Shown piece after piece: positions 35,493 to 50,921 of a stretch of 52,467 nt of DNA. The translations under genes and the position numbers were made by a program. The DNA lies in the IMG/VR virus record IMGVR_UViG_3300022746_000027, positions 1 through 52,467 of that record, one strand, 5' to 3'. The DNA is from a virus. The first letter of the stretch is position 1, and each line of letters begins with the position of its first letter. The notes beneath the pieces were generated by a model. It saw only the letters and a program-made list of their open reading frames with translations, made no database searches and was not told where the DNA came from.

Positions 35493-37198
35493 TACTGTTC
35501 AAAACATTGAAGTGGCGAAATTTCCTTTCAACTGGCAACATCTTTACCGAGATTCAACTAAACAAGCATCCTAGTGCATTGATTGTAGGTGAGAACGGAG
35601 CGGGTAAGTCTACGCTATTAGATGCTCTGACATTCGCACTCTTCGGTAAGCCATATCGAAATATCAACAAGCCACAGTTGGTAAATTCAGTCAACAATAA
35701 GGACTGTCTCGTAGAACTGACATTTCAGATAGCAGACAAAAACTACATGATTCGTCGTGGACTAAAGCCTGCTGTGTTTGAGATTCTAGTAGATGGAACT
35801 CTCCTGAACCAAGATGCGAGGTCTAAGGACTATCAGGACACTCTTGAGAATACAATCATCAAGATGAATTACAAGTCTTTCACGCAGATAGTTATTCTTG
35901 GCGCAGCATCGTTTACTCCATTCATGCAACTATCTGCATCAGATAGACGAGCAGTTATCGAAGATCTTTTGGATATCCAGATCTTCACTAACATGAATAG
36001 CATCGTTAAGGAAAGAGTTAGTTCGCTCAAGACTGAAATGGCTGAACTCAAGATCAAGCTGGATTCTGTTAAAGAGAAGATCGAACTTCATAAGTCACAT
36101 ATTGACGCTATGAAGAGAAACAACACAGAGACGATCAGTAAGAAGCAAAGACAGATCCTAGAACACAACAAGACTCTGATCGAGTTGAACATCAACAAAG
36201 ATAAAGTCGAAGCTGAAATTGAAAGTATGCTGACTGAGATTGCAGATAAAGAGTCTGTGCGTGTGAAAGAAAAGAAGCTAAATGCGTTCGAAGTGAAGAT
36301 TGAAACATCGAAGTCTAAGCTTGAGAAAGAGATTAGGTTTTATACTGATAACGATAACTGCCCTTCGTGTAAGCAGACAATCAATGTAGATTTCAAGTCA
36401 ACTATCGTTGAGCAGAATAATTCTACATTAGAAGATTATGTCGATGGGCTAAAGAAACTAGCAGAACAGAAGGATATTCTGTATTCACGAATAGCGAATA
36501 TCGAGAAGATTCAGAATGCAATCAGTAATCTAGAAGCTAATGTGACTACCACGATAACTAGTATTTCACACACTAAGAAGTACATTCGCAATCTTGAGTC
36601 TGAGATAGAAGAACTATCTGAGTCTAAGTCTATTAGCACAGATACTAAAGATCAATCAGAGAAGCTTCTAGCTGAATTGACATCGCTAGTCGAGCGAAGA
36701 AAAGGATCAGCAGAGGAAAAGCAATACTACGATGTCGCTGCTACCCTTCTGAAAGATGGAGGCATAAAGAGCAAGATCATCAAGCAGTATCTTCCTGTGA
36801 TAAACAGACTTGTGAACAAGTATCTTGCTAGTATGGATTTCTTTGTGAACTTTAACATCGATGAGGAATTCAAAGAAACCATCAAGTCTAGACATAGAGA
36901 CGATTTCAGCTATGAGTCTTTTTCAGAGGGTGAGAAGCAGAAGATCGATCTATCGCTACTGTTGACGTGGCGATCTGTTGCTAGATTGAAGAATAGTGTC
37001 AATACAAACCTTCTGATATTGGATGAGACTTTCGATTCATCACTAGACAGCAAGGGTACAGATAGCTTGCTTCAAATTCTACATACACTACCAGAGAATA
37101 CAAACGTGTTCGTTATCTCACACAAGGATCAACTACACGATAAGTTCTCTCACTCTATCCGCTTTGAGAAGAAGCAGAATTTTTCGAGGATTTCATAA
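35489..37198 (+). CDS. 46: Recombination nuclease ATPase subunit, gp46-like (SbcC/Rad50)
   Basis: The 569-residue SMC-type ATPase (T4 gp46 560) has Walker A in GENGAGKST (34-42), a long coiled coil with the zinc hook C291-P-S-C294, the ABC signature SFSEGEKQKIDL near 475-486, and Walker B LLILDETFDSS near 508-518. It holds and moves DNA ends for the gp47 nuclease. It overlaps gp47 by 4 bases and shares one base with the next gene (TAATG). Confidence 0.95.
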   Translation: MILFKTLKWRNFLSTGNIFTEIQLNKHPSALIVGENGAGKSTLLDALTFALFGKPYRNINKPQLVNSVNNKDCLVELTFQIADKNYMIRRGLKPAVFEILVDGTLLNQDARSKDYQDTLENTIIKMNYKSFTQIVILGAASFTPFMQLSASDRRAVIEDLLDIQIFTNMNSIVKERVSSLKTEMAELKIKLDSVKEKIELHKSHIDAMKRNNTETISKKQRQILEHNKTLIELNINKDKVEAEIESMLTEIADKESVRVKEKKLNAFEVKIETSKSKLEKEIRFYTDNDNCPSCKQTINVDFKSTIVEQNNSTLEDYVDGLKKLAEQKDILYSRIANIEKIQNAISNLEANVTTTITSISHTKKYIRNLESEIEELSESKSISTDTKDQSEKLLAELTSLVERRKGSAEEKQYYDVAATLLKDGGIKSKIIKQYLPVINRLVNKYLASMDFFVNFNIDEEFKETIKSRHRDDFSYESFSEGEKQKIDLSLLLTWRSVARLKNSVNTNLLILDETFDSSLDSKGTDSLLQILHTLPENTNVFVISHKDQLHDKFSHSIRFEKKQNFSRIS

Positions 37199-37776
37199 TG
37201 GGCGAAAAGAAGATCAAATTCATTGACGGTAACATGTTTGAGTATGAGATCTTAGATCTCGTAGATGAATATGACCCTATACTACATGAACCCACTGTTC
37301 CTGTGGACTTCGATGTAATGTCTGGTGCTGAGATTTCATATGTCGCAACTTCTCTAGCAGAGACATTAGATAAGCTTCAAGGTTTAGGGCTTAGTGCTAA
37401 TCAGGTAGGTATCAAGCATAAGATCTGTGCTATCAATATGGGAGAGAAGATCTGGATGCTAATCAATCCAGAAATTATTTCCAGCAGCGAAGCTGTCAGC
37501 GACTACAATGAGGGGTGTCTATCTTTCCCTGGCTTGTACCTCAAGATCAAAAGACCACAAAGTATCGTGGTGAAATTTCAGGCATTCAATGGCGACTTTG
37601 TGGAACAGCAGTTCGATGGACTGACTGCTACCGTCATTCAGCATGAGATTGACCATCTGAATGGTATCTGCTATACTTCTAAGGTTAGTCCCATCAAACT
37701 TGAAATTGCAAAGAGAAAAACCAAGTCCAATCTCAAGAAAATGCGAAAGGCTCGCAGCAGAGGGCTAAGTTATTGA
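37198..37776 (+). CDS. def: Peptide deformylase
   Basis: The 192-residue protein has three complete peptide deformylase motifs: GLGLSANQ (62-69), EGCLS (105-109) with the metal ligand Cys107, and QHEIDH (148-153) with His149, Glu150 and His153. The enzyme removes the N-formyl group from new proteins. T4-like cyanophages carry similar genes, where they may support synthesis of virion or host photosystem proteins. The C-terminus is basic. The last bases carry the conserved upstream box of the next promoter. Confidence 0.93.
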   Translation: MGEKKIKFIDGNMFEYEILDLVDEYDPILHEPTVPVDFDVMSGAEISYVATSLAETLDKLQGLGLSANQVGIKHKICAINMGEKIWMLINPEIISSSEAVSDYNEGCLSFPGLYLKIKRPQSIVVKFQAFNGDFVEQQFDGLTATVIQHEIDHLNGICYTSKVSPIKLEIAKRKTKSNLKKMRKARSRGLSY

Positions 37777-37827
37777 TTCTATTGAGGTTTTTGGAGTTGA
37801 CTTTTTGACTGGTTAGAAGCATACTGT
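37766..37827 (+). promoter_or_regulatory. Promoter with conserved upstream box, copy A
   Basis: TAAGTTATTGATTCTATT (37766-37783) stands 31 bases before TTGACT (37797-37802), with a -10-like ATACTGT at 37821-37827. The same 18-base box at the same distance occurs at 40086 and 50860. It drives the VWA/HEXXH gene. Confidence 0.75.
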
Positions 37828-37849: not shown

Positions 37850-40072
37850 ATGAGTCTAACTAATACAAAATCTGTTCTGGCGAAGCTTCTGGCTTCGGAG
37901 AATATCACTGTTCAGCATGGTGCGGTGAAAACCGCATACTTCGATATGAAGAATCGGGTTCTTATGTGCCCGACTTGGGTCGACATGGACGGTGACATCT
38001 ATGACCTTGTCATGGGTCACGAAGTTGGTCATGCCCTGGAGACTCCCGCTCAGGGCTGGCATGATGCCCTTGTTGATGGTCAGAAAAAGAAGTTTAAGTC
38101 TTTCCTCAATGTCATTGAGGATGCGCGCATTGAAAAGAAGATCAAGCGCCGTTATCCTGGTCTGGCTAGGTCATTTGCTAACGCATATAAGTCGCTGTAT
38201 GAGCGCGACTTTTTCGGCATCAACAAGCTGCCGGATACTGACAAGCTTGGAATTATCGATCGGATAAACATTCGATTCAAGCTTGGTGCGCACGTTATCG
38301 TCCGCTTCAATGATGAAGAACGAGAATTCGTGCGTGAAGTGGAAAACGCCGAGACCTGGGAACAGGTTGTAGATATCGCCAATCGTGTCTATGCTTATGC
38401 ACAATTGCATGAGAAGGACAAGATTAATTCAATTACCGATCTGAAAGATTATATCCGCGAGGCTATGAAAGACCTCACTGGGGATATGGAGACAGAGGAT
38501 GCGTCCGATGATGACTCCGACGATTACTCGGATGATGAGGACGATGAAATTGACGGAGGAGACTCCTCTAGTGATTCGGTTGGCGATGAATCTGAGGAAG
38601 ATTCTGAGGAAGATTCTGAGGAAGATTCTGAGGAAGATTCGGCTTCCGGTGGTGGTGAGGATGAGGACGATGGTGAGCCGCAGTCGGTGACTGATAGTGC
38701 CTTCCGTCAGCGTGAATCGGAACTGGTGAACAGTTCTGGTGTCGTCAGTATGCTGGAACTTCCTGAGCCGAATTTGAAGAAGATCATCAAGGCTAATTCT
38801 AAGCACCTTCTGGATTTTGAAGGTGCGATGAAGGATATGCTCAGACGGACTGATAATGTTCTGGGTCGGAATCATGTTGCATACGAAACCCTGACTCGCA
38901 CTGCCGTATTTAATTTCAACAAGAATAATCGCAAGTATATTGCGCATATCCTGAAGGAATTTGAAATGCGCAAGTCGGCGACGCAGTATGCCCGTGCGCA
39001 GACTGCAAAGACTGGCGAACTGAACATGAATGCTCTTCATGGATATCGTTTCACTAACGACATCTTCAAGAAAATTTCAATCGTTCCTAAGGGTAAGAAC
39101 CATGGCATGATTCTGTTTGTGGATATGTCTGGTTCTATGTTCCACATTCTGCGCAATACGATTGAGCAGCTTTTGGTTCTTGTTTCTTTCTGCAAGAAAG
39201 CTAACATTCCGTTCGATGTTTATGGATTCAGTAATGACTATTATGGTGGGCTTGTTGATGCTGGGCTCGACGGCAATGCTTCCGAGAAGTTTACTTCTAG
39301 TGCGAGTGTAGACAGGTCAATTCAATTCACTGGATACTATTTCCATCTCAACCATATGATTGGTTCGGGTCTGTCGAAGTCCGCATACTCTCGGTCATTC
39401 GCTGCACTTGCTGTTGTTGCGGATCAGTTCTCCAAGAGTGGTTATATGAGTAATATTGACCAGATGACTTGGGCTAATGCTGGCTTCGGACTGAACACAA
39501 CTCCGACGCTCGAAACGCTGGCAGCATCTAGGAAGATCATCACTGATTTTCGTATTGCCACTCGCGCGGATATCGTGAACGTTGTTTATCTGACTGATGG
39601 TGTTGGCGATTCTAACTGGAGGGCTGGTAATACCAGTCGTTATTTCGGCAAGGGTACTGTTAACTATATCGTAGATAAGAATACGCAGAAGAAGCGGCGG
39701 GTGACTGATAGCAATATGCAGTCTGCCATGACTGAACTTGTGCGGGATGTCACTGGTTGCAAGCACATCGGATTCTATCTCGTTCCTCGCAGTAGTCTCC
39801 GTCGTGAATTGAGATACACCGTGCGCAACTTCAATGATGCCAAGGAAATGAAGGAGTGTGTGCGAAAGAATAACTTTTTCTCTATTCCTACTCTTGGGTT
39901 CGACAACTATTACTATGTTGGTATTGATTCTTCCAATATCGATGACGGCGATCTGAATGTGAACGTTGGTATGTCTAAGTCTAAGATGGCGTCTAACTTC
40001 AAGAAGTTTCAGCTTGGTAAGTCTAGCAACCGAGTCCTCGTGAGTCGGTTTGCCCAGGAAATCGCAGCATAA
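37850..40072 (+). CDS. HEXXH plus von Willebrand A protein (CobT-like)
   Basis: The 740-residue protein has a zinc-metallopeptidase-like HEVGH at 57-61 (GHEVGHALETPAQGWHDAL) in its N-terminal domain. The middle is a strongly acidic low-complexity segment (about 205-290). The C-terminal von Willebrand A domain has the MIDAS D425-x-S427-x-S429 (VDMSGSM) and a later TDGVGD. The VWA part resembles CobT, the partner of the CobS ATPase; a CobS/MoxR-like gene lies 0.6 kb downstream. Together they may be a MoxR-VWA chaperone that remodels or metallates a target. Arg codons are mainly CGN, unlike virion genes. Confidence 0.8.
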   Translation: MSLTNTKSVLAKLLASENITVQHGAVKTAYFDMKNRVLMCPTWVDMDGDIYDLVMGHEVGHALETPAQGWHDALVDGQKKKFKSFLNVIEDARIEKKIKRRYPGLARSFANAYKSLYERDFFGINKLPDTDKLGIIDRINIRFKLGAHVIVRFNDEEREFVREVENAETWEQVVDIANRVYAYAQLHEKDKINSITDLKDYIREAMKDLTGDMETEDASDDDSDDYSDDEDDEIDGGDSSSDSVGDESEEDSEEDSEEDSEEDSASGGGEDEDDGEPQSVTDSAFRQRESELVNSSGVVSMLELPEPNLKKIIKANSKHLLDFEGAMKDMLRRTDNVLGRNHVAYETLTRTAVFNFNKNNRKYIAHILKEFEMRKSATQYARAQTAKTGELNMNALHGYRFTNDIFKKISIVPKGKNHGMILFVDMSGSMFHILRNTIEQLLVLVSFCKKANIPFDVYGFSNDYYGGLVDAGLDGNASEKFTSSASVDRSIQFTGYYFHLNHMIGSGLSKSAYSRSFAALAVVADQFSKSGYMSNIDQMTWANAGFGLNTTPTLETLAASRKIITDFRIATRADIVNVVYLTDGVGDSNWRAGNTSRYFGKGTVNYIVDKNTQKKRRVTDSNMQSAMTELVRDVTGCKHIGFYLVPRSSLRRELRYTVRNFNDAKEMKECVRKNNFFSIPTLGFDNYYYVGIDSSNIDDGDLNVNVGMSKSKMASNFKKFQLGKSSNRVLVSRFAQEIAA
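38591..38638 (+). repeat. 12-bp tandem repeat, four exact copies
   Basis: Four exact copies of TCTGAGGAAGAT encode the acidic S-E-E-D repeats of the linker in the VWA protein. Copy number can vary without changing the frame. Confidence 0.9.
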
Positions 40073-40084
40073 AGCTGCGATTTC
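40058..40084 (+). terminator. Stem-loop spanning the VWA gene stop codon
   Basis: GAAATCGCAGC and GCTGCGATTTC form a perfect 11-bp stem around ATAAA, which contains the TAA stop. No T-run follows, so it may act as a 3'-end stabiliser or partial terminator rather than a classical terminator. Confidence 0.6.
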
Positions 40085-40085
40085 G

Positions 40086-40144
40086 TAAGTTATTGATTCT
40101 ATTAGAGTTTTTTGTATTGAGTTTTCGTCGTATTCTAGTACAAT
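40086..40144 (+). promoter_or_regulatory. Promoter with conserved upstream box, copy B
   Basis: The 18-base box (40086-40103) is 31 bases before TTGAGT (40117-40122). A 16-base spacer and TACAAT (40139-40144) follow. The expected transcription start is near 40151. Confidence 0.8.
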
Positions 40145-40171
40145 GTTTACATGATGAACGAAGGACAGTAT

Positions 40172-40369
40172 ATGAATCTTCTACAGTTTACCGAGATTGC
40201 TCGGGCGGCTGTTCCGATGACGGAAACGGACCATGATATGTTCAATGGTGCGCCCGAGGGATCGCTGATAGCTTTCAGCGAAACTGCGGTCTATATCATC
40301 TCCGAGACTGAGGTTTCCATCATCACGGAAGATGATTGTGTTCGGTTCGAACTTTCTGAATTGATTTAA
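40172..40369 (+). CDS. Small acidic protein, unknown
   Basis: I take ATG 40172 (AAGGA 6 bases upstream). In-frame ATGs at 40151 and 40154 lie at the expected transcript start. This gives 65 acidic residues (MNLLQFTEIARAAVPM, then an antiparallel beta pattern IAFSETAVYIISETEVSIIT). It lies in the operon leading to the MoxR-like ATPase. No family is recognised. Confidence 0.6.
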   Translation: MNLLQFTEIARAAVPMTETDHDMFNGAPEGSLIAFSETAVYIISETEVSIITEDDCVRFELSELI

Positions 40370-40376
40370 TTCGCAC

Positions 40377-40676
40377 ATGAAGAAAACACCTCGACGATTT
40401 ATGCTTCCAGTGGAAGTAATCCGCAATGAAACGGGATTCAAAATGATCCGTGGTTCAATTGTGGTTGTTGTGCGCGAATTGATTGATCGTAGAATGCCTC
40501 GGTATTATGGCCGCCATCCAAGTGGAATTTATAGTGTTTACTATAAAAACAAAAAGGTCGCGTCATATCGATGCGGCTTTGAATCAGAAGTCATCGAAGA
40601 TTTTCAACGTGGTGTGTTGGCGGGAGTTGATGTTCCCAGTGTAATGTTTCCTGATTTGTCTTTAAGATTTATTTAA
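40377..40676 (+). CDS. Small basic protein, unknown
   Basis: The 99-residue basic protein starts 8 bases after the previous stop, without a clear ribosome site, so translation may depend on coupling. A hydrophobic IVVVVREL strand and a YGRHPSGIYSVYYKNKKVAS beta hairpin suggest a compact beta fold. It has no membrane segment. It is co-transcribed with the MoxR-like gene. Confidence 0.55.
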   Translation: MKKTPRRFMLPVEVIRNETGFKMIRGSIVVVVRELIDRRMPRYYGRHPSGIYSVYYKNKKVASYRCGFESEVIEDFQRGVLAGVDVPSVMFPDLSLRFI

Positions 40677-40690
40677 TTGAGGTCTATATA

Positions 40691-41899
40691 ATGCGAAAGT
40701 CTAATTATGATGCTGCTGCGCGAGAGAAGGTCTTGGCTGATCTTCGGGCGTATTACAAGTCGGATACTGTTTCTCCGAAACAACTTCGTGAATACTCTGC
40801 GGAAAAGAATATCGATTATCCGTATTTCATCGATCGGGAACGCAAGATTGCCCGTGGCGTATGCTCCATCGCATCGAATGGAATTCCTGTGACTTCGGCT
40901 CCCAAGCCGAAGCTTCCGAAGCTTTGGAAGTCCCCTAAGTCGGTAGAGTCTACCGTCGAGGAATCGTCTTCGGTTGCTGCTAACGTTGTCCATATGTCCT
41001 CGAAGAGGATGCTAAACGTTACCGAGTCTTTCATTCCCGAGAAGAATAAGACTTATGTCCCGTTCGGGTTCTTCGGCGACTTGAAGAATATCATCAAGTC
41101 TGGGATTTTCTATCCCGTGTATATCACTGGTCTGTCTGGTAACGGCAAGACGTTTATGATTGAGCAGGTCTGCGCAGCCCTTGGGCGCGAGTTGATCCGT
41201 GTGAATATCACTAAGCGTACTGATGAAACTGACTTGATCGGTTCATATGAATTGATCGACGGTAATACCGTTCGACGTGAAGGTCCTGTCGTGACTGCTA
41301 TGCGTCGCGGCGCTGTGCTCCTTTTGGACGAGACTGACCTTGGCACGGAAGATCTTCTGTGTCTCCAGCCGATCCTCGAAGGCAAGCCGTACTTCGACAA
41401 AAAGACTGGCGAAGTCATCAATCCTGCGCAGGGTTTCAATGTCATTGCGACTGCTAACACTAAGGGTAAGGGATCGGACGATGGCCGATTCATCGGTACT
41501 AATGTACTGAATGAGGCGTTCCTCGAGCGATTCGCTATCACGGTCGAGCAGGAATATCCGCCTGTTGCAACTGAACGTAAGATTCTGGAAAGGAATTTTG
41601 CCGAGTATGGTTGCGATGATGCTAATTCGGCTACGTTCATCGATCGGCTTATCACTTGGGCTGATGTTATCCGTAAGACGTTTGCCGATGGAGCTATCGA
41701 TGAGATTATCTCCACTCGCCGTCTGGTGCATATCGCAAAGGCGTATAGCATCTTCGGGAATCGCATGAAGGCTATCGAACTGTGCTTGAATAGGTTCGAT
41801 ACTGAAACTAAAATTGCATTCTCGGATCTGTACACTAAGGTCGATGCTGATGCTGTCGCGCCCTCGCCCGAGGCTATGAATCTAGACAATCCGATCTAA
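40691..41899 (+). CDS. CobS/MoxR-type AAA+ ATPase
   Basis: The 402-residue AAA+ protein has Walker A G147-L-S-G-N-G-K153-T, Walker B VLLLDETD (209-216), sensor 1 in VIATANT (251-257) and the MoxR/CobS feature RTDETDLIGSYE. The approximately 100-residue N-terminal extension is helical and basic. CobS-like genes are common in T4-like phages. The VWA partner CobT-like gene is just upstream. The pair may insert a metal or remodel a protein complex rather than make cobalamin, because no other cobalamin gene is present. Codon use is CGN-rich for Arg. Confidence 0.85.
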   Translation: MRKSNYDAAAREKVLADLRAYYKSDTVSPKQLREYSAEKNIDYPYFIDRERKIARGVCSIASNGIPVTSAPKPKLPKLWKSPKSVESTVEESSSVAANVVHMSSKRMLNVTESFIPEKNKTYVPFGFFGDLKNIIKSGIFYPVYITGLSGNGKTFMIEQVCAALGRELIRVNITKRTDETDLIGSYELIDGNTVRREGPVVTAMRRGAVLLLDETDLGTEDLLCLQPILEGKPYFDKKTGEVINPAQGFNVIATANTKGKGSDDGRFIGTNVLNEAFLERFAITVEQEYPPVATERKILERNFAEYGCDDANSATFIDRLITWADVIRKTFADGAIDEIISTRRLVHIAKAYSIFGNRMKAIELCLNRFDTETKIAFSDLYTKVDADAVAPSPEAMNLDNPI

Positions 41900-41905
41900 A
41901 ATGAT

Positions 41906-41934
41906 TTGACATACCACTAATATTGTGGTATAAT
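41906..41934 (+). promoter_or_regulatory. Consensus sigma70 promoter with embedded 21-bp palindrome
   Basis: TTGACA (41906-41911), a 17-base spacer and TATAAT (41929-41934) are perfect consensus. The spacer lies inside an inverted repeat, ATACCAC-TAATATT-GTGGTAT (41911-41931), which overlaps both elements and looks like an operator. Confidence 0.9.
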
Positions 41935-41938
41935 GAAT

Positions 41939-41972
41939 AGCATTGGAAGGGATGCCACACCCTTCCAATGCT
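41939..41972 (+). promoter_or_regulatory. Strong leader stem-loop at the transcript 5' end
   Basis: AGCATTGGAAGGG and CCCTTCCAATGCT form a perfect 13-bp stem with loop ATGCCACA. It begins 5 bases after the -10, so it would be at the very 5' end of the mRNA. It could protect the transcript from decay or act as an early termination/regulatory element. No T-run follows. Confidence 0.8.
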
Positions 41973-42002
41973 GATTTGCAATTGTGGCGTTACTGTTGAG
42001 GT

Positions 42003-42293
42003 ATGAATATGTCAGCTACCGAATCTATGCTAAATTATCTGATGAAGGGAAATTCCGTGACTGCTCGCCAGGCACGAACTATGTTCAAGGTCGAACACAT
42101 TAGCACAATTGCTTATCGTCTCCGAAACGAGGGTGTTCCGATCTATACTAACCGCGAAACTAATTCGCGCGGCGAAAACGTTTTCGCCTATCGCATTGGC
42201 ACTCCGAATGCCAAGTATCTGAGTCACATGAAGTCGCGTCATCTTGGTCGCGCTCGAAAGACCCTTTACACTAAGGCTCTTTCTGCTGCCTAA
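42003..42293 (+). CDS. Winged-helix-like DNA-binding protein candidate
   Basis: The 96-residue basic protein has an N-terminal segment LNYLMKGNSVTARQARTMFK followed by STIAYRLRNEGVPIYTNR, the helix-turn-helix plus wing pattern of small phage regulators. The C-terminus is Arg/Lys-rich. It has its own consensus promoter with palindromic operator, a leader hairpin and a terminator, so it is a single-gene unit and plausibly autoregulated. Many phages encode this type; its targets are unknown. Confidence 0.7.
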   Translation: MNMSATESMLNYLMKGNSVTARQARTMFKVEHISTIAYRLRNEGVPIYTNRETNSRGENVFAYRIGTPNAKYLSHMKSRHLGRARKTLYTKALSAA

Positions 42294-42315
42294 TCTCGTC
42301 CTGAGATAGGATACG

Positions 42316-42350
42316 GGGACTAGAATTGTTCTGATTCTAGTCCCTTTTTC
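42316..42350 (+). terminator. Rho-independent terminator after winged-helix gene
   Basis: A perfect 11-bp stem (GGGACTAGAAT and ATTCTAGTCCC) with a 7-base loop is followed by TTTTTC. Confidence 0.92.
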
Positions 42351-42412: not shown

Positions 42413-42994
42413 ATGGTAAAAGAAAGTGCAGCATATGACAACTATCTGGATGTTGAGAGCCGTCTCAATGATTCTTATAGACCAACCCTAGAGTCTATTC
42501 TAGGAGAAGTTATTGATACTCCAATTGTCGATAACACTAAAGCAAAGAAATCTAATGACCCGGATCTTTGGAAGAAGATCTATGTCCATTTCCGAACTAC
42601 GGAAGACATCGTGGACTTCTGCAAGCGTATTGGTCATGTTATAGATGCTAAGACCAAGGATATTTGGTTTCCTATGGCGTCTGGATCTGCGCTATTTGAT
42701 TCTACTCAAGATCCTATAGAATCCGTTGACGCTTCGCTAGTAGAGCCGAAGTCTGTTATTGAAGTTGCAGATAAAAGAAATGATGATTGGAAGAAGCATT
42801 GGGTAGGAATGCCCGAGTATGTGCAGGAGAATAATCCTGCACATAAATCCATAACTGTAAAGTTTAGATCACAGACAGATTATGATACGTTCAGTCAACG
42901 TATCGGTCAAGAATTGTCAGATAAGACTAATGCCATTTGGCATCCTAAACTGACTCGTACACCTAATTTTCTATTGCGATGGATTGAGGAATGA
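42413..42994 (+). CDS. Protein with two copies of a phage DNA-modification-associated domain
   Basis: The 193-residue protein consists of two similar segments, about 55-100 and 125-190. Each has K-x-I-x-V-x-F-R-(T/S)-x-x-D/E, a central (D/T)F-C/S-x-R-I-G helix and a closing K-T-(K/N)-x-I-W-(F/H)-P. I recall this domain attached to DNA methyltransferases or ParB-like proteins in other phages; here it stands alone and duplicated. The second copy is preceded by WVGMPEYVQE. Its role is unknown. It is coupled by ATGA to the glycosyltransferase-like gene. Confidence 0.65.
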   Translation: MVKESAAYDNYLDVESRLNDSYRPTLESILGEVIDTPIVDNTKAKKSNDPDLWKKIYVHFRTTEDIVDFCKRIGHVIDAKTKDIWFPMASGSALFDSTQDPIESVDASLVEPKSVIEVADKRNDDWKKHWVGMPEYVQENNPAHKSITVKFRSQTDYDTFSQRIGQELSDKTNAIWHPKLTRTPNFLLRWIEE

Positions 42995-43842
42995 TCGAAA
43001 AAATATTTATTCCCACCGTTAAGCGAAGCGACAATCAAATTACGTTTGAGAATCTGCCTACTGAACTCCAGTCTAAGGTAGTTATGGTAATAGATCCATC
43101 TGAGCGTAGTAAGTATTCATATCCATGTGAATATCTAGAATTACCCACCAACATCATTGGTAGTTGGACTCAGCTTGCCCAGACTAGAAAGTTTATTCAT
43201 CAGACCGCTGGTAATATCAAGTATGTTATGGCTGATGATGATTTGATTCTATACAAGAGAAACAGTAAGTATTGGTCTGATACTAGTGATATGGAAGCAT
43301 CTAAGCGAGTAGCTTCAAAGGATGAGATTCTCCGTCTATTTGAAACTGCATCTAAGTGGTTAGATAGTGAAACTATTGGAATAGTTGGACTATCTGATAA
43401 CAAAGTGCCTCCAGCAAATACGGAGTATTCTGATACAAAGGGTGTGTTCACATTTTTGTTCTTAGATGGCAAGAAGATATCTAAGATTGCAGATCAGCTA
43501 GAAACTTCTGTTCGTGTTGCAGAAGATCTACTGTTTCTGTTTGAGTGCTTGTCTGTTGGTATCGACACTAGAATGTCTAATGAGTTCCTATATATCAATA
43601 AGAGCGAATCTGCATCATTCGAATCTAGTAGACCAATTTGGGCAGATATGTTCAAAGACAAGCAACCAGATGATTACTTTCAAACAGATGAACACTATGA
43701 TGCGCTACGTTATATCCAACAGAAGTTTCCAACTGGTATAGAAATCTTCAAAGAAGATGGTAGAATGAAAAACATAAAGACTTGGAAAAAAGTATTAAAC
43801 TGTAAGAAGTCTGATTCTCTGGAGAATTTCTTTAATGACTAA
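42991..43842 (+). CDS. Glycosyltransferase-like protein (GT-A type)
   Basis: The 283-residue protein has an N-terminal Rossmann-like start (MIEKIFIPTVKRSDNQITFE), a substrate-loop AQTRKFIHQTAGNIKYVMAD and an acidic triad D-D-D (MADDDL) in the place of the DxD metal-binding motif of GT-A enzymes. The later VRVAEDLLFLFECL segment could hold the acceptor-site acid. It may transfer sugar to modified DNA bases or to a surface polymer. The second and third genes of the cassette have the same general fold. Confidence 0.65.
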   Translation: MIEKIFIPTVKRSDNQITFENLPTELQSKVVMVIDPSERSKYSYPCEYLELPTNIIGSWTQLAQTRKFIHQTAGNIKYVMADDDLILYKRNSKYWSDTSDMEASKRVASKDEILRLFETASKWLDSETIGIVGLSDNKVPPANTEYSDTKGVFTFLFLDGKKISKIADQLETSVRVAEDLLFLFECLSVGIDTRMSNEFLYINKSESASFESSRPIWADMFKDKQPDDYFQTDEHYDALRYIQQKFPTGIEIFKEDGRMKNIKTWKKVLNCKKSDSLENFFND

Positions 43843-44773
43843 TCCACGTTATCCCGTATACATCGTATCCAAGGGTAGAGCAGACACGATGATTACATCG
43901 AAGTCTTTGTCTCGTATGGATGTTCCCCACTACATCATCATTGAACCACAGGACGAAGAGTCATACAAACAAGCGATTGTCAATTTCAGTCTGCGGAATG
44001 TTACGCTGCTGATAGCACCGTTCTCTAACCATGGGGATGGACCAGGTCGTGCTAGAAACTGGGCGTGGGATCACTCGATTAGTATTGGTGCAGATGCACA
44101 TTGGGTACTAGATGATAATATTTCAGACTTCTATCGACTCAATCGTAATGAGCGTATTCGTGTAGAGTCTGGTGTATTCTTCCGAGTAATGGAAGACTTC
44201 TTCGATAGATATGAGAATCTTTATATCGCTGGTCCTCAATATCGATTCTTCATCGCTCCAAATCAGAAGTATCCGCCATTTGTTACTAACACCAGAATCT
44301 ACTCAACCCTACTGATTCGCAATGATTGTAAGCATCGTTGGCGTGGTAGATACAATGAAGATACTGATATCTGCTTGCGTGTACTGAAAGATGGAGACTG
44401 CACGGTGCAATTCAATGCGTTCATGCAGGGCAAGTGTGCTACACAGACTGTGAAGGGTGGCAATACAGATGAATTCTATCATAAGGAATTTGTTGAAGAT
44501 CCAGAAGCAATAAAGAAACAGCGATATCATGCTGCTGGTACTATCAACAAGTCTCAGATGCTTGCTGATATGCACCCTGATGTTGCCACCGTTGTTTGGA
44601 AGTATGGTCGTTGGCACCATCATGTCGATTACACACAATTCAAAAAGAATAAACTGAAACTAAAAGATGGTGTGACACTACCTAAAAGTGGTGTCAATAA
44701 TTATGGAATGAAACTGGTAACACTTGTGTCAGAAGATCAAGTTACGCCTAATGGTATTGTACTAGGAGAATGA
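43835..44773 (+). CDS. TET/JBP-associated-type glycosyltransferase
   Basis: The 312-residue protein begins RYPVYIVSKGRADTMITSKS and continues VPHYIIIEPQDEESYKQA, APFSNHGDGPGRARNWAWDH and HWVLDDNI. This order of motifs is characteristic of the TET/JBP-associated glycosyltransferase family described in phages. DDNI is the metal-binding acidic motif, and RYNEDTDICLR a conserved acceptor segment. The family is thought to glycosylate hydroxymethylated pyrimidines in DNA. No base hydroxymethylase is present in this window. It overlaps the previous gene by 8 bases. Confidence 0.8.
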   Translation: MTNPRYPVYIVSKGRADTMITSKSLSRMDVPHYIIIEPQDEESYKQAIVNFSLRNVTLLIAPFSNHGDGPGRARNWAWDHSISIGADAHWVLDDNISDFYRLNRNERIRVESGVFFRVMEDFFDRYENLYIAGPQYRFFIAPNQKYPPFVTNTRIYSTLLIRNDCKHRWRGRYNEDTDICLRVLKDGDCTVQFNAFMQGKCATQTVKGGNTDEFYHKEFVEDPEAIKKQRYHAAGTINKSQMLADMHPDVATVVWKYGRWHHHVDYTQFKKNKLKLKDGVTLPKSGVNNYGMKLVTLVSEDQVTPNGIVLGE

Positions 44774-44776
44774 TAT

Positions 44777-45592
44777 ATGCAACTTGAAGTGTCCGTCGAA
44801 AAATTGAGAACTAAAAAGCTATTTGTGGCTACTCCAATGTATGGAGGGCAATGTCTTGGAATGTACACTAAATCGTGTCTTGATTTGCAGGCAATCTGTG
44901 CTAACTACGGCATCGAAGTCCGTTTCTCATTCATCTTCAATGAGTCTCTAATCACTCGCGCAAGAAACTATCTTGTCGATGAATACTTGCGTTCAGGATT
45001 TAGTCATCTACTGTTTATAGATGCCGATATCAACTTTGATCCTCGTGATGTCATTGCACTTCTGGCTATGGACAAGGACATCGTTGGTGGTCCTTATCCT
45101 AAGAAGTCGATCAAGTGGAGCTCCGTACTTGAAGCTGTGAAGAAAAAGCCAGACATCACAGCGGATGAACTTTCGAAGGTAACTGGCGATTTCGTATTCA
45201 ATCCAGTTCCTGGAACTGAGAAGTTCTCTGTTGGTGAGCCAATCTCTGTTCTCGAAATCGGCACTGGTTTTATGTTGGTAAAGCGAGAAGTCTTTGATAA
45301 GATGGCTGCAGCTTATCCCATGATTCACTATAAGCCAGATCATATTGGTCAGGCTAACTTCGATGGTAAGCGTTACATCCACGCATACTTCGATACAGTC
45401 ATTGATACTGCCGATAGTATTACTGGTGGTGGATCAGATCGATATTTGTCTGAGGACTATATGTTCTGTCAGATGTGGCGAAAGATTGGTGGAGAAATCT
45501 GGCTGTGTCCTTGGATGAGAACCATGCATGTTGGAACATATGCGTTCACAGGCGATCTGCCTATGATTGCTCAATTGGTTGGCAGTCTATGA
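44777..45592 (+). CDS. Family-2-like glycosyltransferase
   Basis: The 271-residue GT-A protein shows KLFVATPMYGGQC at its N-terminus, FNESLITRARNYLVDEYLRS, the metal-binding DADINF (LFIDADINFDP) and GGPYPKK, a set typical of phage glycosyltransferases also found in T4-like cyanophages. C-terminal SEDYMFCQMWRKIG carries the conserved ED-Y acceptor motif. Its acceptor may be DNA or a capsule/LPS sugar. It starts 4 bases after the previous stop and overlaps the dNMP kinase by ATGA. Confidence 0.8.
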   Translation: MQLEVSVEKLRTKKLFVATPMYGGQCLGMYTKSCLDLQAICANYGIEVRFSFIFNESLITRARNYLVDEYLRSGFSHLLFIDADINFDPRDVIALLAMDKDIVGGPYPKKSIKWSSVLEAVKKKPDITADELSKVTGDFVFNPVPGTEKFSVGEPISVLEIGTGFMLVKREVFDKMAAAYPMIHYKPDHIGQANFDGKRYIHAYFDTVIDTADSITGGGSDRYLSEDYMFCQMWRKIGGEIWLCPWMRTMHVGTYAFTGDLPMIAQLVGSL

Positions 45593-46281
45593 TAATTGGA
45601 CTAGTGGGATTTATTGGAAGTGGAAAGGGATCTGTTGCCGACTTCCTTGTAGATAACCATGGGTATGACAAAGAGTCCTTCGCAAGTAGTGTGAAGGACG
45701 CAACTGCTGCTATATTTGGATGGGATCGTCGGATGCTTGAAGGAGATACTGTCCACTCTAGACGTTGGCGAGAAGAACCAGATTCGTGGTGGTCTGCTAA
45801 GATGGGTAAAGACTTTTCTCCCAGAATGGCATTACAGTTGATGGGAACCGAAGCTGGAAGAAATGTCTTCCATGAAGATATCTGGATCAATTCACTGGAA
45901 CGACGATTGCATCCGAATAGAAATGTTGTGATCGCTGACGTTAGATTCCCAAATGAAATTGCAATGATTCAACGGATGGGTGGTGCAATTGTTTGGGTTA
46001 GGAGAGGTAATCTCCCTGAGTGGTATCATACTGCATATGAGCAAAATACCACAGATCCTAATAATTATTGGCTATTGGAGGATGCTGGCGAACTGATGGA
46101 ACAGAAGCATCCTGGGATTCATTCCAGTGAATGGTCGTGGATTGGTCATCAATATGATATTAGTATGGACAACAATGGCACCATAGATGATCTACGCAGA
46201 AACGTTGACAACCTGGTAAAAAGTGTGTATAATATTCCTTTGAGTGTTGAGGGTAATGAGGTATACAATGAAACTATCTAA
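45589..46281 (+). CDS. 1: Deoxynucleoside monophosphate kinase, gp1-like
   Basis: ATG 45589 gives 230 residues, close to T4 gp1 (241). The P-loop is GFIGSGKGS (7-15). Later motifs are a MALQLMGTE segment (T4: RRLMQALGTDL), NVVIADVRFPNEIAMI (T4: YYIVPDTRQDHE) and GGAIVWVRRG. The kinase phosphorylates dNMPs, including modified ones in T4. Location after the glycosyltransferases fits nucleotide supply for modified DNA. Its 3' end contains the clamp promoter. Confidence 0.85.
   Translation: MIIGLVGFIGSGKGSVADFLVDNHGYDKESFASSVKDATAAIFGWDRRMLEGDTVHSRRWREEPDSWWSAKMGKDFSPRMALQLMGTEAGRNVFHEDIWINSLERRLHPNRNVVIADVRFPNEIAMIQRMGGAIVWVRRGNLPEWYHTAYEQNTTDPNNYWLLEDAGELMEQKHPGIHSSEWSWIGHQYDISMDNNGTIDDLRRNVDNLVKSVYNIPLSVEGNEVYNETI
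46205..46233 (+). promoter_or_regulatory. Consensus sigma70 promoter for the sliding clamp
   Basis: TTGACA (46205-46210), a 17-base spacer and TATAAT (46228-46233) lie inside the kinase 3' end, 34 bases before the clamp ATG. Both hexamers are perfect consensus. Confidence 0.88.
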
Positions 46282-50859: not shown

Positions 50860-50921
50860 TAAGTTATTGATTCTATTAGAGAATTCCGAGTTGAGTTTTC
50901 CCAGGAATCTAGTATTATAAT
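50860..50921 (+). promoter_or_regulatory. Promoter with conserved upstream box, copy C
   Basis: The 18-base box (50860-50877) stands 31 bases before TTGAGT (50891-50896). A 16-base spacer and TATTAT (50913-50918, or TATAAT at 50916-50921) follow. The ATG of the next gene lies at the expected transcription start. Confidence 0.8.

Follow-up and report, generated by a model that had tools for sequence, protein, structure and literature searches.

The cobS gene is a published core gene of cyanophages (PMC3037559), and a cobST cluster was reported from many tailed viruses by Liu et al. 2021, who considered the label "peptidase" mistaken (PMC8651126). From jumbo phages, Iyer et al. 2021 described a MoxR-vWA pair with a metallopeptidase at the N terminus of the vWA protein and proposed that it acts in virion assembly (PMC7824862). 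The present analysis concerns such a pair, a CobT-like protein with an HEXXH motif and a CobS ATPase, encoded in IMG/VR virus record IMGVR_UViG_3300022746_000027 (positions 1 to 52,467; hereafter the window, a 52-kb virus fragment). Profile comparisons indicate that the HEXXH domain is the N-terminal domain of the CobT family, with a putative metal site that phages and plasmids retain intact but the bacterial B12 enzyme has lost. Both published labels are thus half right, because the protein belongs to the CobT family and its predicted peptidase site is intact.

The "peptidase" of T4-like cyanophages (phrog_459, T4-GC 146, e.g. S-PM2p122), which accompanies CobS (T4-GC 150), shares with the window CobT the HEXXH and NxxED motifs, the linker, the metal ion-dependent adhesion site (MIDAS), a match over the full length and the position between gp46 and gp45, whereas the identity is ~33% and the window cluster has an upstream peptide deformylase gene (pdf) and two lineage-specific small genes. 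Ochrobactrum phage vB_OspM_OC has the same gene order, gp47-gp46-pdf-CobT-CobS-glycosyltransferase-gp45-gp44, but its CobT is 19% identical to that of the window and HESAH replaces HEVGH. The MoxR AAA+ - vWA pair of group 2.2 jumbo phages (ASV44728/ASV44729) agrees in architecture and two-gene pairing, as matched by the description in the paper, although its authors propose virion assembly (PMC7824862). The IncC VWA protein of Photobacterium pP91278 (598 residues) combines HEAAH, NVLEDCRIE and a VWA domain with a CobS-like AAA ATPase nearby; it differs in lying on a conjugative plasmid, in a bet-exo-DUF3150 cluster with the DUF3150 gene in between. In Pseudoalteromonas phage XG4 (locus L008, 3890-6129), two open reading frames (ORFs) encode the halves of the protein, first VWA and then HEXXH.

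A single-sequence search of viral contigs returned zero relatives, and an alignment was required; tblastn located the protein in 463 phage records, predominantly from T4-like cyanophages, and the best matches had 33-36% identity over most of the length. The phrog_459 profile matched residues 2-739 of 740 along profile positions 2-736 of 736 (E 8.7e-175). Annotated T4-like genomes repeatedly show the order gp47-gp46-peptidase-CobS-gp45-gp44, and between peptidase and CobS lie 0 to 6 unrelated genes. The architecture is therefore not a new combination: it has a protein family, those phage records and a prior literature in which the phage CobT or MoxR-vWA-metallopeptidase pair is already published (PMC8651126, PMC7824862). 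A putative metallopeptidase-VWA protein of the DUF2201 type (PF13203) was rejected as the identity, its profile having no match in the window.

Conservation and predicted structure of the putative metal-site domain

The N-terminal HEVGH motif, the acidic linker and the VWA domain with its MIDAS are all present in the 740-residue protein as first annotated (Table 1), and HEXXH occurs only once in it. The MIDAS is intact in D425, S427 and S429, and T551 and D583 are also there and invariant. H57, E58, H61, N87, E90, D91 and R93 are identical in 86/86 non-redundant relatives, and the MIDAS residues likewise. Since HEV[GA]HAL was among the seeds with which this set was gathered, the search was repeated from the VWA half only; in this HEXXH-independent sample, many loci of which overlap with the first set, 71/71 phage proteins reaching the region carry HEXXH and 72/72 carry NxxEDxR. 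One apparent exception to HEXXH was a protein cut by the contig end just beyond the motif. At the level of sequence, these alignments show the HEXXH motif and the downstream Glu of phage CobT to be under strict purifying selection, and the HEVGH motif of the window CobT is by this measure far beyond chance. The features are of the gluzincin type, with HEXXH kept and the downstream Glu (E90, a candidate ligand) invariant on the following predicted helix.

The AlphaFold2 model of the N-terminal domain (predicted local distance difference test score, pLDDT, 86; predicted template modelling score, pTM, 0.82) comprises a beta hairpin, a helix at 48-64 carrying HEXXH and a helix at 79-101 carrying E90. 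Its leading Foldseek matches in the PDB are Methanocaldococcus jannaschii selecase and jannalysin, ArdC and PprI, each an HEXXH metallopeptidase or closely related to one; the first two have a probability of 0.98-0.99, but E-values reach only 0.16. In the viral library, fold matches were to phage CobTs and proteins of haloarchaeal viruses, among others. The fold is predicted to be zincin-like with the motif on a helix, and a HEVGH motif outside a zincin-like structure, which would have spoken against the first annotation, did not appear in the model at the level of helices and overall fold. A profile of the phage family found nothing meaningful among PDB sequences, although a search with a phage-plasmid CobT reached the solved CobT structures 9uka and 21vt. 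The VWA domain matched NorD bound to NorQ and the MIDAS domain of midasin, both of them partners of AAA+ rings.

In the full-length model the linker is disordered at residues 212-271 (pLDDT below 50). Tandem 12-bp repeats of GAAGATTCTGAG, encoding SEED, compose the linker at window positions 38585-38644, and this tract is likely length-variable.

Relation to the bacterial CobT family

The window CobT has no direct Pfam match to the CobT N-terminal family PF06213. The HEVGH-bearing CobT of a Klebsiella phage matches both this family (E 1e-22) and CobT_C (E 7e-100), and the VWA protein of an IncC plasmid, which has HEAAH, scores above the PF06213 cut-off. In hhalign comparisons, where reversed decoys scored 0.05 or worse, the T4-like N-terminal domain aligned with that of phage-plasmid/IncC CobT (E 5.7e-14 over 185 columns), and the latter with cellular alphaproteobacterial CobT N-terminal domains (E 2.1e-7 over 199 columns). 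Compared directly, the T4-like and cellular CobT profiles matched only marginally (E 1.3e-4 over 37 columns), and their homology is settled because the phage-plasmid/IncC sequences link both. What the first-pass annotation took for a domain added to a MoxR-VWA module is, by this bridge, the standard N-terminal domain of the CobT family. HEXXH is missing from the corresponding place in 19/19 aligned cellular CobTs, most of which retain a Glu at the position of phage E90.

Cobaltochelatase CobT/CobS (TIGR01651/PF06213+PF11775; TIGR01650) resembles the window pair in domain order, in the N-terminal domain that the bridging sequences connect, in the MIDAS-bearing VWA domain and in the AAA+ partner. 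The two differ in the HEXXH motif absent from bacterial CobT, in the CobN gene absent from related phage contigs (see below) and in the equivalog scores, which for the window lie far below both cut-offs (CobT against TIGR01651, 16.6 bits, cut-off 759; CobS against TIGR01650, 86 bits, cut-off 559). In a CobS tree, which is unrooted and has long branches and unsettled bootstrap values, the sequences from T4-like phages, phage-plasmids, conjugative plasmids and cells cluster apart from one another; this separation argues against a recent host capture of phage CobS.

CobS and the gene neighbourhood

The ATPase matched AAA_5 (E 2.5e-20), CbbQ_C (E 1.9e-4) and phrog_249 (E 1.1e-111), and the first annotation of a CobS/MoxR AAA+ ATPase behind CobT, with two small genes between, is borne out. 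As in MoxR-VWA pairs, a MoxR/CobS AAA+ protein here adjoins a VWA protein with a MIDAS. CobS lies 3' of CobT in 66/75 related loci where 3.5 kb or more of sequence is available downstream, and the gap between the two has a median of 92 bp over all related loci with CobS. One related group has its CobT located elsewhere, and an 87-kb contig of this group has CobS at a distance, non-adjacent. Gene order thus shows CobS to be a conserved putative partner of phage CobT. The 72- and 99-residue ORFs between the two genes in the window are lineage-specific insertions, because a homologue was found in none of the related loci, closest relatives included.

Terminase, tail sheath, portal, scaffold and gp23 were located by profile matches at 19.5-30 kb of the window, followed 3' by uvsY, uvsW, gp55, gp47, gp46, peptide deformylase, CobT, CobS, glycosyltransferases, gp45 and gp44. 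This set and order of virion and replication genes identify the window as part of a T4-like myovirus. The pair is embedded in a replication/recombination block, gp46 - pdf - CobT - CobS - gp45 - gp44, and the synteny of the phage CobT family (gp46 - CobT - CobS - gp45 - gp44) is present. Phage-plasmid CobT genes neighbour DnaE, ligase or primase; the HEXXH-VWA gene neighbours ssb-bet-exo on an IncC plasmid and recT-exo on a Proteus plasmid. Judged by this gene context, the pair would act during the phase of DNA replication/recombination.

On the IncC and Proteus conjugative plasmids (loci L165, 4570-7728, and L166, 3619-7917), the order MoxR - DUF3150 - HEXXH-VWA adjoins the Bet/RecT and Exo genes. 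A literature search on IncC cobS/DUF3150 found no paper. In the SXT integrative and conjugative element, deletions of bet, exo, s067, s068 and s070 lowered transfer at most 10-fold (PMC2791158); from gene order, we infer that s067 and s070 are the MoxR and VWA genes.

Proposed function and alternative explanations

The CobT/CobS pair is tentatively regarded as an ATP-driven remodelling or proteolysis machine of the replication phase, a plausible reading, favoured over the alternatives below, that still falls a little short of being probable. CobS would form an ATP-driven ring, onto which CobT would be docked by the VWA MIDAS and the acidic linker, which would also engage a client protein. The gluzincin-type domain would then cleave or grip the client remodelled by the ring, and the client may be a phage or host DNA replication/recombination protein acted on during the replication phase.

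The proposal draws on the strict conservation of HEXXH and NxxEDxR, the predicted fold, the resemblance of the VWA domain to partners of AAA+ rings, the usual position of CobS next to CobT and the replication or recombination genes nearby in otherwise unrelated elements. Several points weigh against it. Zinc binding and proteolysis by CobT are predictions from sequence and model, contact between CobT and CobS is putative, and the PDB fold E-values of the N-terminal domain (0.16) are weak. The phage-plasmid CobTs of Nican01 and of an Acinetobacter plasmid have lost both histidines and keep the CobT/CobS pair, so catalysis is not always needed. In addition, the T4-like neighbourhood is inherited synteny and therefore counts as one observation, to which the phage-plasmids add about one more.

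It is also conceivable, though unlikely, that the proteins are viral cobaltochelatase subunits, a proposal published by Liu et al. 2021 (PMC8651126), whereby CobS and CobT would recruit host CobN, insert cobalt and raise B12 for phage nucleotide synthesis, and "peptidase" would be a mis-annotation. The homology of both subunits to CobS and CobT agrees with this proposal, but CobN (PF02514) matched 0/16 related virus contigs, which may be fragments. The small subunit of ribonucleotide reductase found in 6 of these 16 contigs is of class I, not B12-dependent, and B12-dependent NrdJ had no match above the cut-off in the possibly incomplete contigs. HEXXH is intact in homologues borne by plasmids of E. 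coli and Klebsiella; in the E. coli control, a search for the CobN family gave no match. The separate CobS clades, with no sign of recent host-gene capture, and the metal site strictly kept by phage CobT and missing from bacterial CobT count against it as well.

A machine for virion assembly, with the pair as remodeller and the metallopeptidase as processing enzyme of structural proteins, has been proposed in print for jumbo phages with the same architecture (Iyer et al. 2021), and the tail of an archaeal virus provides a precedent for a MoxR-VWA pair in this role (PMC7824862). For the window pair this role seems improbable, since the genes lie in the replication block, apart from the virion genes, and homologues occur on conjugative plasmids, which make no virion. 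Similarly improbable is an N-terminal domain that serves as a non-catalytic metal- or peptide-binding module of a pure AAA+/VWA chaperone. Bacterial CobT and the two phage-plasmid CobTs without the motif, which retain domain and partner, are what such a module would lead one to expect; in T4-like phages, however, both histidines and the catalytic-type Glu58 are completely conserved, and a purely structural role does not obviously demand E58.

The function proposed in the first-pass annotation, a protease of early host takeover for which the two small proteins serve as adaptors, is very improbable. Sigma-70-like promoters do lie 5' of CobT and the small genes, and phage proteases directed at hosts are a general precedent, but none of the related loci has a relative of the small ORFs, CobT and CobS are usually directly adjacent there, the pair occupies a core-gene position in the replication block, and no host target is known.

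Promoters, codon usage and flanking genes

The 17-bp element AAGTTATTGATTCTATT has three exact copies in the window, two flanking the CobT/CobS module and one at 50861, and a sigma-70-like promoter comes after each. The earlier idea of a dedicated promoter family comes down to these three copies and is unremarkable. Likewise, the codon usage of CobT does differ from that of the capsid and tail genes, as had been noticed, but it resembles that of the neighbouring replication genes (gp46/gp47); it reflects the gene block and is therefore no argument for early takeover.

A peptide deformylase (PF01327, E 3e-39) is encoded at 37198-37776, immediately 5' of CobT; many related contigs, and Ochrobactrum phage OC too, have this gene before CobT. 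Beyond CobS, positions 41906-42345 begin with a perfect extended sigma-70 promoter, TTGACA-17-TATAAT (12/12), immediately followed by a 13-bp hairpin (41939-41972), a gene for a winged-helix protein of 96 residues and an intrinsic terminator, the whole forming a self-contained transcription unit. Between CobS and gp45, positions 42991-46281 hold genes for two TET-associated glycosyltransferases (PF20691), a weakly matched Anp1-like glycosyltransferase and a deoxynucleotide monophosphate kinase, which suggests glycosylated hypermodified DNA.

Table 1. Features of the CobT/CobS locus in the window
Feature	Position	Strand	Evidence
17-bp element AAGTTATTGATTCTATT, then sigma-70-like TTGACT-17-CATACT, 5' of CobT	37767..37825	+	repeat and promoter search
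Phage CobT-like protein ("peptidase", phrog_459), 740 residues: predicted zincin-like N-terminal domain, acidic linker, VWA	37850..40072	+	ORF, phrog_459, tblastn
N-terminal domain, about residues 1-210, CobT N-terminal type, putative metal-site motif intact	37850..38479	+	AlphaFold2, Foldseek, hhalign chain
HEVGH motif, residues 57-61, inside predicted helix 48-64	38018..38032	+	sequence, conservation, AlphaFold2
Glu90 of N87-x-x-E90-D91-x-R93, candidate third metal ligand, next helix	38117..38119	+	conservation; helix 79-101
Acidic linker, predicted disordered, residues about 212-275, 12-bp tandem repeats (SEED)	38483..38674	+	pLDDT, repeat detection
VWA domain, MIDAS D425-x-S427-x-S429 (D425-M-S-G-S429), T551, D583	39092..39949	+	sequence, conservation, Foldseek
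Second copy of the 17-bp element with TTGAGT-16-TACAAT, 5' of small genes and CobS	40087..40144	+	repeat and promoter search
72-residue ORF, lineage-specific	40151..40369	+	without family match
99-residue ORF, lineage-specific	40377..40676	+	without family match
CobS/MoxR-type AAA+ ATPase, 402 residues; AAA_5 core at about 41117-41530	40691..41899	+	Pfam, phrog_249

Biological implications

Bacterial cobaltochelatase CobST may be a domesticated relative with a dead peptidase site, and the CobST of mobile elements (phages, phage-plasmids and conjugative elements) an old ATP-driven metallopeptidase that edits DNA replication and recombination complexes, a view that must be considered doubtful at present. 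Marine T4-like phages are abundant, and the CobT/CobS pair is among their core genes; metagenome counts treat it as an auxiliary gene for vitamin B12. Should the metal site prove catalytic, the B12 reading would be wrong for CobT, and a widely counted "auxiliary metabolic gene" would instead encode a protein-remodelling protease.

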